A stretch of 64,000 nt of DNA from an uncultured Prevotellaceae bacterium (GTDB taxonomy: Bacteria; Bacteroidota; Bacteroidia; Bacteroidales; Muribaculaceae), in assembly GCA_946409635.1 (NCBI GenBank), contig CAMJXD010000007.1:1-64000 (forward strand), in the 5' to 3' direction. Below the pieces are notes generated by a model, which was not told the DNA's origin, did no database searches, and was given only the letters and a program-made list of their open reading frames with translations. The translations under genes and the position numbers were made by a program. Positions within the stretch are counted from its first letter, which is position 1, and every line of letters begins with the position of its first letter. Below are positions 38,157 to 43,279 of this stretch, piece after piece.

Positions 38157-39008
38157 ATGACTATGTTACGCCAACTATTGATGACGCTTATCCTCGTGGC
38201 GGGGATAGGGCTTCCTGCAGCCGGTCAGATCGTGTCGGTCGAGGGAAAATCAAGCAAGGAGATTGCCGACAGCATACGCGAGGAATTGGACAGCAGACCC
38301 TACTTTAGCCTGTACAAGGACACCTACTTTGTGGGCGGCACCGTGCTGGGCAGCACGCCCTCGATACACAACAGCGACGTGAAGTTCCAGATCAGTTTCC
38401 AGCAGCGACTCACCAAGAGTGTGCTGCCGTGGAACACCTACCTCTACCTGTTCTATAGCCAGAAGGCCCTGTGGAATGTCCTGGAGCGCTCGCTCCCCTT
38501 CCACGACCTGAACTTCAACCCCGGTATCGGTATCTCCAGGTATATCATCCTGAAGAACCGTCTGGTGGGCAAGGCCACAATGATGATAGAACACGAGTCA
38601 AACGGTCGCGACGGTACCGCATCGCGCAGCTGGAACAAGATTTCGTGGGCCGGTGAGGCCTACATTTCTCCCAACCTGATGGCGCACGCCAAGTTCTGGA
38701 TACCGATAATCGACGGCATGTATAACAAGGATATCCTCAAGTATAGCGGCATCTACCAGACTGGTTTCCAAGCCATCAGTAACGACAACAAGTGGGTGCT
38801 CGACATGACACTGGTCAAGCGTCAGGGCTGGAACCTCAACTTCAACACCATCATTCAGCTGGGCTACCGCATCAACCACAATTCCAACCAGTTCATCATG
38901 CTGCAGTACTACAACGGCTACGGTGAGAGCTTGCTCGACTACAACCAGTACCACTCACGACTGAGGATAGGCCTGCTCATCAGGCCGCGGTTCTTCAGCG
39001 ACTTCTAG
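38157..39008 (+). CDS. pldA: Phospholipase A (OMPLA-like)
   Basis: Signal peptide; catalytic MIEHESNGRDGTASRSWNK; C-terminal barrel; upstream TACCTTTG at 38121. Confidence 0.88.
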   Translation: MTMLRQLLMTLILVAGIGLPAAGQIVSVEGKSSKEIADSIREELDSRPYFSLYKDTYFVGGTVLGSTPSIHNSDVKFQISFQQRLTKSVLPWNTYLYLFYSQKALWNVLERSLPFHDLNFNPGIGISRYIILKNRLVGKATMMIEHESNGRDGTASRSWNKISWAGEAYISPNLMAHAKFWIPIIDGMYNKDILKYSGIYQTGFQAISNDNKWVLDMTLVKRQGWNLNFNTIIQLGYRINHNSNQFIMLQYYNGYGESLLDYNQYHSRLRIGLLIRPRFFSDF

Positions 39009-39059: not shown

Positions 39060-42000
39060 TTAGGCTTCGCGGGCCAGTTCAAGGGTGGACTTGATGACGA
39101 GATAGTCCAGCGCCTTGTAGTCGATGTGGCTGTCGGGATTGAGGCGATTGTGATAGGCAGTCACCGCGTCGAGCTGGCTCCAGTCGACCAGACAGGGGTG
39201 GACCTTGGCGGCCTCGTCGCAACTGTCGAGTGTGCCAGCCGGTGCTCCCGTGTAACCGAGCATCTCGAGTGATGCCGCCCAGCGGATGTGCTCGTTGCGC
39301 GCCAGATTAAGGTAGAGCTGCTGCACATCCAAGCCCATGACGCTGGACGCCGAGAACGAGAACTGGCACCCGTTTTCACTGAACTTGATAGCTTCCTCAA
39401 GCTGCGACAACAATTGTTGCTGTTGCTCGTCGTCCGTGCCGTTGATGCCTATGAGGCGCAACTTGGTGGGGATGTGCATGCCGTTGTGGATGTCCTGCGT
39501 CTCCTGACGGACGACACGGTTCTGGCGTTGCCAAGTGATGCCCATGTACTCGCCGCTGCCGGTAGTGATGCCGCGTCCCTCGTCGTGGCGCTTGTCCCAG
39601 TCGGCATCGGAGACGTTTTTCAGCTTGTTGTAGGTGTAGTAGAAGTGCTTGGCTGCCTGTTCGATGCTGTCGTCGACCATCATGTCAAATGTGAGCAGAT
39701 CCAATCGGTTGCCGAAAATGGAGACGACTTTCTTGTCCCCGCCGAGCAGCTGGTTGAAGTGCTCGGCCTGCTCCTTCAGGGTCGACTCGTAGTTGGGGTC
39801 GTAGTTGCGTACAAAGAAGCGCAGCTTGCCCAGTTTGCCATTTCTCACCCTCATGGCCTGGTCAATCATAAAGGTGAGAGCACCCATGTTGGTCTTGTCG
39901 CTGCCCATGTTGATGACGACGAAGTTCATGTCGCGGTTACTGAGTTTCTCGTTGACCAGCTCGACAAAACGGTCGCTGTTGAGGGCCGCCTGCTCAAAGC
40001 GCAGCAGCGGTGTGTGCTCCTCGTCGTTGTTGTGAGCCGACTGGACGGCTGGAATCTTGGCCATGTATCGGGGTCTGATCAAGTCAACGTCCTTGTCCAC
40101 GATCGTACACTGGAAGGGAGAACGCCTGATGGGCCGACCGTCGCCATCAGGGCCAATACAGCTATGGTCCAGAAAAGCACCAAACTCATAGAGATAGCTC
40201 ACAATGTCGCGCCCGCCGCGGCCAAAGCCGATGACCAGCGACTCAAACCGTGACTTGACCGAAGCCGTGGCCGTGTCACAGTCGACAAAGTTGATCGGGT
40301 GGTTGTCGGGGTCCTTGAACAACGACTGAGCCGCCATGACCGAGATGTCGAGGGTTTTCACCCTGACCTTGCCCCCCTTGTCCTTCTCGCCTGCCGACAT
40401 GCTGTGAAGCGGGGTCTCGAGCAGTGCGCTGAAGGCATTCTTGCGCGCCAGGCAATAGATAGTGGCTTCGCCCTTGAGCCGGTGCACGATATCGAGCATC
40501 TTGCGCAGGTTGTCGGTAGCATCGATATTGGCCCTGTCGTTATTGTCGAGGAAGAAGAAGTGGCAGCGTTGTGCATTCTTGATCATCTTGGACAGGTTCT
40601 TCAATCCCAGAGAGTTGAAAAGGGCGTATCGCTCGTTCTGGTCCACCTTGTGGCCGCTGTTGATGAGTTCCATGATCCTGCCCACCTCATGGCTGCACTC
40701 TCGACTCGAGATGGCCGAGTCGCTGATGACCAGCAAGGCGTGGGGGCTGATCTCCTGAACCTCGGCATAAGCGTCCTTGCGGAAGTTGAACATGCCCACC
40801 AGACTACTGATTGACATGCCGCTGCCCATGCCGTCGACTGGCGTGTTGCGGTTCTCGACCATGACGATGGTGTGGTTGCTGTCGTGCATATTCCTCAACT
40901 TGCGGGCAACGTCCTTGGCCATGATCTTGGTGTTGTCGTTGATGCCGAAGAAGACATACAGCTCGCCTGGACCACGGCTGCGGTCCCAGATGCTCCAGAA
41001 CGAGTTGATGCGGGACCAGGCCAGCGAGACCAGCGCAAACGACGAGATGAGCAAGAACGCCAGCTTGCACAGTGTGTAGAAGCCCATAAAGGCACCGTTG
41101 TTCCTCAACGTGAACGAGATCTCCTTGACGTTATCGCTCAAGACAAACATCTTGCCCGACTCGAGCGCCGGGCGGACGATGCTGGCGAGAACCGACTTCT
41201 GGGTTCCCAGGGAGTACATGCCGATAAAGTAGCACATGAATCCCATGGCCCACGCCCCTAGGGCGCCCCAGATGAGCGTCTGGCGGAAGGTGTTCTTGCC
41301 CTTCAGGCTAGTGTCGCCTCCCACCTTCAAGTGCTTGAGATCCTTGATGACGTACTTGACCGAGAAGACCGATACTCCTATCGCCGAGAAGCACACAAAG
41401 ACAAAGAACGGGTCGGCGCGATACTCATATTCCTTGTCCAGGGGGATGGAAAGGTTAACCATCGACAGGAGTATCGCGAGCATAAAGACGATGACGACAA
41501 TCATCATGCGGTTGGCCTTGATGAAGTCGAGAAACTTCTTCATCCAGTGGGTTTCATACTTGTCCTTGTCCTCAATCGTCCCCTTGGTTTTGTTGAAAAA
41601 GTCCCTGATAATCTTGCGTTGGAAGTAGGTCAGCCAGAGCGGGGTGGCTACAATCAGCAGCATGACGACATAGATTGCCAGGTTGTACCACTGCGCGTCG
41701 TGGGGATCCTTCAGGTCAAAGTGTTTCAAATCCAGCGGCGCGGGCTCGTGGGTAAACGTGTCAAAGAAGAGGTAGAGCTGATGCGAACCCTGGTTGATTT
41801 CACGCTGCACCACATACACGTCCCTCATCATGCTGTCGATGGGCGTCATCTGGCCGCCTGGGGAATCGGGCATGCTGGGCCGGTATGGCTGATAGGGGGC
41901 GTCGAGAGCCTCGGGGACGAGGACCCGGCGGTCGTGGTTGTCCTCTTGCATGGCGCTGTAGATGACGATGAAGAAGATGGATAGCAGCAGTATTGCCAGA

Positions 42001-42065
42001 AACGCGTCAAGCAGGAGATTAGACCATTTTTTAGCTCGCTTATTTTTTTTAGGCTTAGTCTTCAT
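39060..42065 (-). CDS. Six-TM protein with two Rossmann/RCK-like regions and possible C-terminal RyR-like domain
   Basis: Six N-terminal hydrophobic helices; GPGELYVFFGINDNTKIMAKDVARKL...TIVMVE; SLVIGFGRGGRDIVSYLYEFG...CTIVDKD; C-terminal LARNEHIRWAASLEMLGY...KVHPCLVDWSQLD. Confidence 0.6.
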   Translation of the reverse strand: MKTKPKKNKRAKKWSNLLLDAFLAILLLSIFFIVIYSAMQEDNHDRRVLVPEALDAPYQPYRPSMPDSPGGQMTPIDSMMRDVYVVQREINQGSHQLYLFFDTFTHEPAPLDLKHFDLKDPHDAQWYNLAIYVVMLLIVATPLWLTYFQRKIIRDFFNKTKGTIEDKDKYETHWMKKFLDFIKANRMMIVVIVFMLAILLSMVNLSIPLDKEYEYRADPFFVFVCFSAIGVSVFSVKYVIKDLKHLKVGGDTSLKGKNTFRQTLIWGALGAWAMGFMCYFIGMYSLGTQKSVLASIVRPALESGKMFVLSDNVKEISFTLRNNGAFMGFYTLCKLAFLLISSFALVSLAWSRINSFWSIWDRSRGPGELYVFFGINDNTKIMAKDVARKLRNMHDSNHTIVMVENRNTPVDGMGSGMSISSLVGMFNFRKDAYAEVQEISPHALLVISDSAISSRECSHEVGRIMELINSGHKVDQNERYALFNSLGLKNLSKMIKNAQRCHFFFLDNNDRANIDATDNLRKMLDIVHRLKGEATIYCLARKNAFSALLETPLHSMSAGEKDKGGKVRVKTLDISVMAAQSLFKDPDNHPINFVDCDTATASVKSRFESLVIGFGRGGRDIVSYLYEFGAFLDHSCIGPDGDGRPIRRSPFQCTIVDKDVDLIRPRYMAKIPAVQSAHNNDEEHTPLLRFEQAALNSDRFVELVNEKLSNRDMNFVVINMGSDKTNMGALTFMIDQAMRVRNGKLGKLRFFVRNYDPNYESTLKEQAEHFNQLLGGDKKVVSIFGNRLDLLTFDMMVDDSIEQAAKHFYYTYNKLKNVSDADWDKRHDEGRGITTGSGEYMGITWQRQNRVVRQETQDIHNGMHIPTKLRLIGINGTDDEQQQQLLSQLEEAIKFSENGCQFSFSASSVMGLDVQQLYLNLARNEHIRWAASLEMLGYTGAPAGTLDSCDEAAKVHPCLVDWSQLDAVTAYHNRLNPDSHIDYKALDYLVIKSTLELAREA

Positions 42066-42301: not shown

Positions 42302-42889
42302 ATGCAGTACTGGATTAATCATAAGGGAGTGCAGTCGGGGCCGGTGGACCTTGAGGGCTTGAAGGACATGGGGCTGACCTCGTCGGCCTATGTGTGGCAC
42401 GAGGGACTGACCGACTGGGTGAAAATCACGCAGCTGCCCGAGCTGCAGGGTTACTATGAGATGGAGCCTGTGGTAGTGGGCACGCCGGTGGAACCAGTGG
42501 TGCCTGCGCCCGCGGCCGAACAGCCCATCGAGACGGTAGCCCAGACGGCCCGGCAACCCGAGGCTTACGAACCGGAGCAGCCCGCTACGGGTTATGGCAT
42601 GCCCGCCCAGCCGCAATATGAGGCACCGGTGCAGGCCGCCGTGACCGAGCCGTGTCCGCCCACCAACCTGGTGTGGGCCATCCTCACGACGCTGCTGTGC
42701 TGTCTGCCCGCCGGCATCGTGGCCATCATCTATGCTACACGGGTGACCAGCAAGTACAACGCCGGCGACCTGGAGGGAGCCAAGCGTGCCAGTGAGACGG
42801 GCGCGTGGTGGTGTATCGCTTCAATCATCCTGGGCATCATCTGCCAGCCGTTCATGTCGTTGATCACGATGATGGCCGGCTCGGTGTGA
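42302..42889 (+). CDS. GYF_2 (DUF4339) plus CD225/dispanin domain protein
   Basis: MQYWINHKGVQSGPVDLEGLKDMGLTSSAYVWHEGLTDWVKI; NLVWAILTTLLCCLPAGIVAIIYATRV...GDLEGAKRASETGAWWC; upstream TAACTTTG at 42259. Confidence 0.85.
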   Translation: MQYWINHKGVQSGPVDLEGLKDMGLTSSAYVWHEGLTDWVKITQLPELQGYYEMEPVVVGTPVEPVVPAPAAEQPIETVAQTARQPEAYEPEQPATGYGMPAQPQYEAPVQAAVTEPCPPTNLVWAILTTLLCCLPAGIVAIIYATRVTSKYNAGDLEGAKRASETGAWWCIASIILGIICQPFMSLITMMAGSV

Positions 42890-42901: not shown

Positions 42902-43279
42902 ATGGGTCGCCGTGTAGTGCTCATCGTGCTGGTGACGGTGCTGCTGCTTGTGGTCGGTGGCATCTATTATGCCTGTGACCCATCGTCATCGTCGCTACTG
43001 CCGCGTTGCACGTTCTTGTCGCTGACGGGCTACAAGTGTCCCGGTTGCGGCAGCCAGCGTGCGCTGCACGCCCTGTTGCACGGCGACTTGGTAGGTGCGC
43101 TGGGCTATAACGCGATGCTGGTGATGGCGGTGCCTTGGGTGGGCTACTGCCTGTATGCCGAGACGAAGCGAGCGAGCAATCCGCGGCTGTATGTGCGCCT
43201 GCACAACCACATCTTTATCACGCTGTTTCTTGCCGTGGTGCTGCTATGGTGGGTGCTGCGCAATATCTTCAACTGGTAA
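42902..43279 (+). CDS. DUF2752 domain-containing protein
   Basis: LSLTGYKCPGCGSQRALHALLHGDLVGALGYNAML. Confidence 0.88.
   Translation: MGRRVVLIVLVTVLLLVVGGIYYACDPSSSSLLPRCTFLSLTGYKCPGCGSQRALHALLHGDLVGALGYNAMLVMAVPWVGYCLYAETKRASNPRLYVRLHNHIFITLFLAVVLLWWVLRNIFNW

Follow-up and report, generated by a model that had tools for sequence, protein, structure and literature searches.

A putative channel-type membrane protein with tandem RCK domains and a RyR domain, linked to TIR genes in Bacteroidales

We analyzed a 64,000-nucleotide stretch of DNA (the window; positions 1 to 64,000 of contig CAMJXD010000007.1, assembly GCA_946409635.1) from an uncultured Prevotellaceae bacterium, and in it a gene at 39060-42065 on the minus strand. 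The encoded protein carries transmembrane (TM) helices, two RCK domains and a C-terminal RyR domain. The family of TM-RCK-RCK-RyR proteins that includes the window gene is designated CORE. On balance, CORE is probably a Thoeris-like, ligand-gated membrane channel-type effector, which reads an ADP-ribose (ADPR) signal made by a TIR protein through its RyR domain. We infer the ligand, the conductance and the role in defense from the domain architecture, the conservation of the RyR pocket, the homology of the pore segment and the genomic linkage described below.

Results

The original prediction, made from the sequence alone, described a large protein with six hydrophobic helices, two Rossmann-like motifs and a RyR-like C-terminus. 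Its coordinates were exact: 39060-42065 on the minus strand is one intact open reading frame (ORF) with an ATG start, 1001 amino acids and zero internal stops, and its identity as a CORE gene is supported by homologues. As judged from the sequence, the gene appears free of decay, with all family-invariant residues present. Long antisense ORFs within it (e.g., 39288-40253 on the plus strand, with a GTG start) were unsupported and were rejected as spurious. Searches with the single window protein against NCBIfam, PADLOC and PDB sequences gave nothing convincing, and no direct RCK match was found in Pfam, where the only match was a sub-threshold one to RyR (PF02026; 16.7 bits at aa 913-973, below the 27.4 cut-off).

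The RyR-like C-terminus, weak from the single sequence, became firm with profiles. The alignment profile matched PDB RyR structures with E-values of 2.6e-15 and 3e-7, and a standalone RyR protein was aligned by hhalign at 5.4e-10. In this alignment, H926, W929, H956 and D987 of the window protein were matched with the H, W, H and D of the standalone protein, whose pocket spacing (0, +3, +25, +42) is that of H75/W78/H100/D117 in the phage protein RyDEP. These RyDEP residues hold a ligand derived from 3'cADPR, a form of cyclic ADP-ribose (cADPR) (PMC13232231), and in the RyR Repeat12 (R12) domain of animals the Trp stacks the adenine (PMC12627627). The pocket is strongly conserved in CORE: H926, W929 and D987 were present in 74/74 sequences and H956 in 71/74. 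All four residues were also kept in 41 of 44 standalone RyR proteins encoded beside CORE. By its significant profile match and its pocket residues, the region at aa 909-1001 (39063-39341, minus strand, as are all parts of the gene) belongs to the RyR family as an R12-type domain.

The structure of the window protein was predicted with AlphaFold2 from a 74-sequence alignment (pLDDT 80.7, pTM 0.75). Confidence was mostly above 90 in the cytoplasmic part and poor for residues 1-215. Two consecutive six-strand Rossmann domains followed TM6. Both of the predicted Rossmann motifs proved real, each opening a strand domain with pLDDT mostly >90. The motif FFGINDNTKIMAKDVA starts the first domain (aa 366-600, 40266-40970; strands 368-572), which has a G-x-N-x-x-S/T motif at 374-379, and VIGFGRGGRDIV starts the second (aa 604-785, 39711-40256; strands 607-784), which has a GxGxxG motif. 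In the second domain, G613, G618 and the acidic D657 were invariant in 74/74 sequences. In a Foldseek search against the PDB, ranks 1-10 were Slo1/BK or Slo2 channels (the title of rank 3 says only 'potassium channels'), and the best match had an E-value of 4.9e-5 and a probability of 1.00. As the global TM-scores were low (about 0.23), these model-based matches show a similar architecture, not a close likeness. The Slo1 fold match and the homology to proteins with TrkA_N (2.6e-12) assign the two domains to the RCK family. Between the second RCK domain and the RyR domain, the model and conservation define a helical linker (aa 800-905, 39351-39668) with a QDxxNxxHxxTK motif, in which H864, T867 and K868 are invariant.

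Hydropathy analysis showed six hydrophobic segments at aa 15-37, 127-148, 186-206, 219-240, 262-284 and 324-352. The loops were alternately K/R-rich and acidic, matching an N-in/C-in topology with positive-inside loops. The six predicted helices are thus supported by hydropathy and loop charges, with segments 1-3 in the low-confidence region of the model. TM1-TM4 span aa 15-240 (41346-42023). The extra N-terminus is common to the window protein and its closest relative found, L043 (35%, from a Prevotella metagenome-assembled genome), and is absent from most homologues. The pore-type segment, consisting of TM5, a short helix and TM6, lies at aa 258-352 (41010-41294; model helices 253-284, 292-308 and 324-362) and was also recovered by hhalign. 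No TxGYG selectivity filter was found in the window protein, as had been predicted, which places it outside the K+-selective channels. In the alignment columns of the pore-helix/filter position (aa 285-323, 41097-41213), F307 was invariant, and position 312 was D, E or N in 72/74 sequences.

The pore segment was connected to K+ channels through intermediate proteins. An outward search in Bacteroidota reached compact proteins of 561-611 amino acids with clear TrkA_N (2.6e-12 in L167) and RyR (2.7e-15) domains, and distant relatives bear the Pfam domains TrkA_N and Slo-like_RCK. With hhalign, the CORE profile matched the compact TrkA_N-RyR family with an E-value of 2.6e-27, the alignment reaching from TM5 to the C-terminus (aa 258-996). 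A second alignment joined the profile of the compact proteins to a true K+ channel (Ion_trans_2, TrkA_N, TrkA_C) with an E-value of 1.3e-10 across TM1, the pore helix, the filter position and the RCK domain. The sequence at the filter position is TTVGFAEV in the true K+ channel, VLQSGDV or VIEGDEP in the compact proteins and MFVLSDNVKEI in the window protein. The topology and this indirect profile chain are compatible with an S5-P-S6 pore fold (Ion_trans_2), for which the TM-only model gave no significant PDB match. From these alignments, we infer that the pore is K+-channel-derived and that its TxGYG filter was lost or changed. The statement 'no channel filter' in the original prediction was correct as an observation, and is better read in this way than as the absence of a pore. 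The ion selectivity of the putative pore cannot be predicted.

The distribution of CORE in Bacteroidales is sporadic. Homologues of about 740-890 amino acids were present in 16 of 149 same-family genomes by protein search, and a profile search found homologues in 15 of the 61 genomes of the genus, the home genome included. Among GTDB contigs, 104 relatives were detected, almost all of them from Bacteroidales. Searches of plasmids, phages and viral contigs yielded no relative, so there is no support for carriage of the gene by a sequenced phage or plasmid. The home genome has a second CORE copy on contig C4, directly followed by a gene for a 102-aa RyR protein, the only RyR protein above the cut-off in this genome. 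At the spot of this paralogue and its RyR gene (G000:C4, L027:7511-10334), CORE-TPR-TIR-RyR variants were seen in other genomes, flanked by the same genes (c7, c19 and c8), which points to a variable hotspot.

The presence of CORE was strongly associated with RyR and TIR proteins. In the family survey, a separate RyR protein was encoded in 15/16 genomes with CORE and 15/133 without it (P = 1.5e-11), and a TIR_2 protein in 15/16 and 29/133, respectively (P = 2e-8). The association was also local: within 6 kb, RyR was found at 11 of 17 loci (0.11 expected, P = 5e-19) and TIR at 6 of 17 (0.26 expected, P = 3e-7). At 77 wider loci, RyR was found within 10 kb in 41, a TIR-type protein in 41 and either in 55, where the TIR labels came partly from clusters and motifs, so that the Pfam-based count at 17 loci is firmer. 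CORE started a same-strand run in 50 of these 77 loci. The operons are variable and include TIR, SIR2-TIR and caspase-domain genes. In L080, the operon CORE-TPR-TIR-RyR has gaps of -4, -25 and 0 bp; the order in L074, L079, L096 and L105 is CORE-TPR-c17-caspase-TIR-RyR, and CORE-RyR pairs overlap by 4-17 bp. In L043, CORE shares its strand with the TIR and RyR genes around it, and each of the five compact relatives inspected has a TIR gene as its direct neighbor. The TIR matches include the Pfam model ThsB_TIR. The motif W-x-x-x-E, taken here to contain the catalytic Glu of TIR NADases, was kept in 18 of 19 short TIRs. The presence of RyR and TIR genes in the operons of relatives of the window gene points to immune-type NAD signaling. 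The 'single-gene unit' of the original prediction holds for the window copy, whose neighbors are on the other strand, and not for most relatives.

Several genes were observed around the TIR and RyR genes of these loci. A gene with BspA-type leucine-rich repeats (LRR) and a caspase domain (Peptidase_C14, 9e-19) lies between CORE and TIR in L074, L079, L096 and L105, and is also found in L083 (4284-5792); its position is reminiscent of TIR-caspase Thoeris variants. In L043 (16907-19159), a TIR_2 domain is fused to a hexapeptide-repeat beta-helix between two RyR genes. In L069 (11928-13419), L106, L109, L110 and L118, a sigma-factor-like gene precedes a gene for a protein of 311-374 aa, in which a C39-peptidase-like region is fused to a C-terminal RyR domain; this is a different setting for RyR, perhaps a regulatory one.

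Discussion

We propose that phage infection or a similar stress would lead the TIR protein to convert NAD+ to an ADPR-type signal, e.g., a cADPR isomer, which would bind the RyR domain of CORE. The RCK gating ring would then move and open a pore that has lost its K+ selectivity, the membrane potential would collapse, and the cell would no longer support the phage. The small RyR proteins beside many relatives may modulate the signal, either binding or hydrolyzing it, or may serve as a companion subunit. It has been reported that TIRs of gut Bacteroides make cADPR and variants in vitro, and that one variant was detected in colonized mice (PMC9092222); an ADPR-type signal is therefore plausible in Bacteroidales. 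The original suggestion of a membrane sensor or novel conductance agrees with the Slo-like tandem RCK fold, the RyR nucleotide pocket and the K+-channel-like pore segment; the context of immune-type NAD signaling was not part of it.

A more specific reading, which we regard as possible and hold tentatively, is that CORE is a bacterial immune channel with a filter-less, K+-channel-derived pore and a BK-like gating ring, gated by a TIR-made cADPR isomer through its RyR Repeat12 domain. It would be a forerunner or a parallel of animal cADPR-RyR signaling, and a receptor for the cADPR variants of gut Bacteroides.

Several observations weigh against a TIR-gated channel. A TIR (ThsB) gene accompanies the putative effector in many relatives but not in the window, where neither a TIR nor a RyR gene was found near CORE. 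Because no TIR gene adjoins it, the window CORE would have to respond to a TIR protein encoded elsewhere in the genome; several TIR_2 matches were found on other contigs of the home genome. The clustering of CORE with TIR could partly reflect defense-island crowding, and PADLOC gave no match for CORE proteins at E <= 0.01, that is, no known ThsA or ThsB profile. A fold search with the TM-only model against the PDB returned generic helix bundles and no significant match, so the identification as a channel rests on profile alignment and topology. Moreover, RyR/R12 domains also bind ADP and AMP-PCP (PMC12627627), and the ligand could thus be ATP/ADP.

This last point leads to a housekeeping channel or transporter gated by nucleotides, whose RyR domain would sense ATP/ADP or NAD-derived metabolites and adjust ion balance with no immune role. 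RCK domains usually regulate ion transport, and the window CORE is a lone gene beside housekeeping genes. We nevertheless consider this explanation rather unlikely, as the sporadic presence in family and genus, the varying make-up of the operons (TIR, SIR2-TIR and caspase-domain genes), and the strong TIR linkage would all be atypical of it. The retention of the four RyDEP residues, among them the catalytic dyad H75/D117, would suit a membrane-anchored scavenger or hydrolase that cleaves or sequesters cADPR signals as RyDEP does, with the TM and RCK parts only anchoring or regulating it. However, of the RyDEP homologues of conserved sequence that have been tested, most show binding and no cleavage, a scavenger would have no need of a tandem RCK gating ring and a pore-type segment, and a small soluble RyR protein is already encoded beside many CORE copies, which makes such an enzyme distinctly improbable.

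It is also conceivable that the loss of the filter was a loss of conduction, and that CORE is a membrane receptor signaling through protein partners such as TPR and TIR proteins. These proteins adjoin relatives, no selectivity filter is recognizable, and the TM-only fold had no PDB match. Against such a sensor, the TM5-P-TM6 topology, the invariant F307 and the D/N/E at position 312 are conserved, and the whole model matched channels; we regard it as very unlikely.

CORE resembles the RCK-gated K+ channels of the Slo/BK (KCNMA1) and MthK types in its pore-type TM5-P-TM6 followed by RCK domains, and differs from them in lacking TxGYG, in its C-terminal RyR domain and in the TIR operons of its relatives. 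Its C-terminal domain is homologous to the RyR Repeat12 family (PF02026), including animal RyRs, PDB 3NRT and phage RyDEP, with the same four pocket residues (PMC13232231, PMC12627627). In CORE this domain is fused to a membrane channel-like body, whereas the phage version is a soluble anti-Thoeris protein. The 3NRT structure is presumably that of a B. thetaiotaomicron RyR-like protein (PMC13232231).

The likeness to Thoeris (a ThsB TIR with a ThsA effector) lies in the ThsB_TIR-matching enzymes that adjoin CORE family members, in the ADPR-type signal that CORE would read and in the caspase-domain gene of some CORE loci. SIR2-SLOG and macro-domain types are among the known ThsA effectors (PMC11204291). 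Among ThsA effectors we found none with RCK-RyR, and the defensive role of CORE is putative. RCK channels, RyR domains and TIR signaling are each known. In the open-access full texts searched, we found no description of an operon that unites the three, of a channel-type TIR effector that senses through RyR, or of a TM-RCK-RyR protein with TIR. If the proposal is correct, a channel-type effector would be added to bacterial TIR/NAD signaling, and a simple, testable protein would be available to address a long-standing question, namely whether cADPR-type molecules directly gate a channel via RyR domains. CORE would also be a candidate receptor for the variant cADPR of gut Bacteroides TIRs, the effect of which is stated to be undefined (PMC9092222).

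Flanking Genes and Additional Loci

The two genes adjoining the window CORE are on the opposite strand and lie outside the proposed system. A convergent phospholipase A1 (OMPLA) gene is located at 38157-39008 on the plus strand (PF02253, 3.4e-43). A divergent gene for a GYF_2-CD225 membrane protein, assigned by Pfam and synteny, is at 42302-42889 on the plus strand and is followed by a DUF2752 gene at 42902-43279, a pair kept in several same-genus genomes. In two genomes of the genus (G540 and G537), the phospholipase and CD225 genes are directly adjacent without CORE, with gaps of about 90-160 bp, so the window CORE was either gained here or lost there. This argument is one of synteny only, because the GC content along the gene did not deviate from its surroundings.

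A family of 485-870 amino acids with a Rossmann-like N-terminus (KVLIVGNHP...) adjoins CORE in several genomes (L098:12268-13809, L103:5004-7040, L107:12108-14099, L112:6710-8755, L113:12102-14114 and L153:1848-3467); a representative had no Pfam match. L204-L209 form a separate group from one family of the phylum, mostly of large RyR proteins (about 880-935 aa), with no TIR seen adjoining. In L207 and L209, the neighbor of the RyR protein begins with a GVTGHRNL (SLOG-like) motif.
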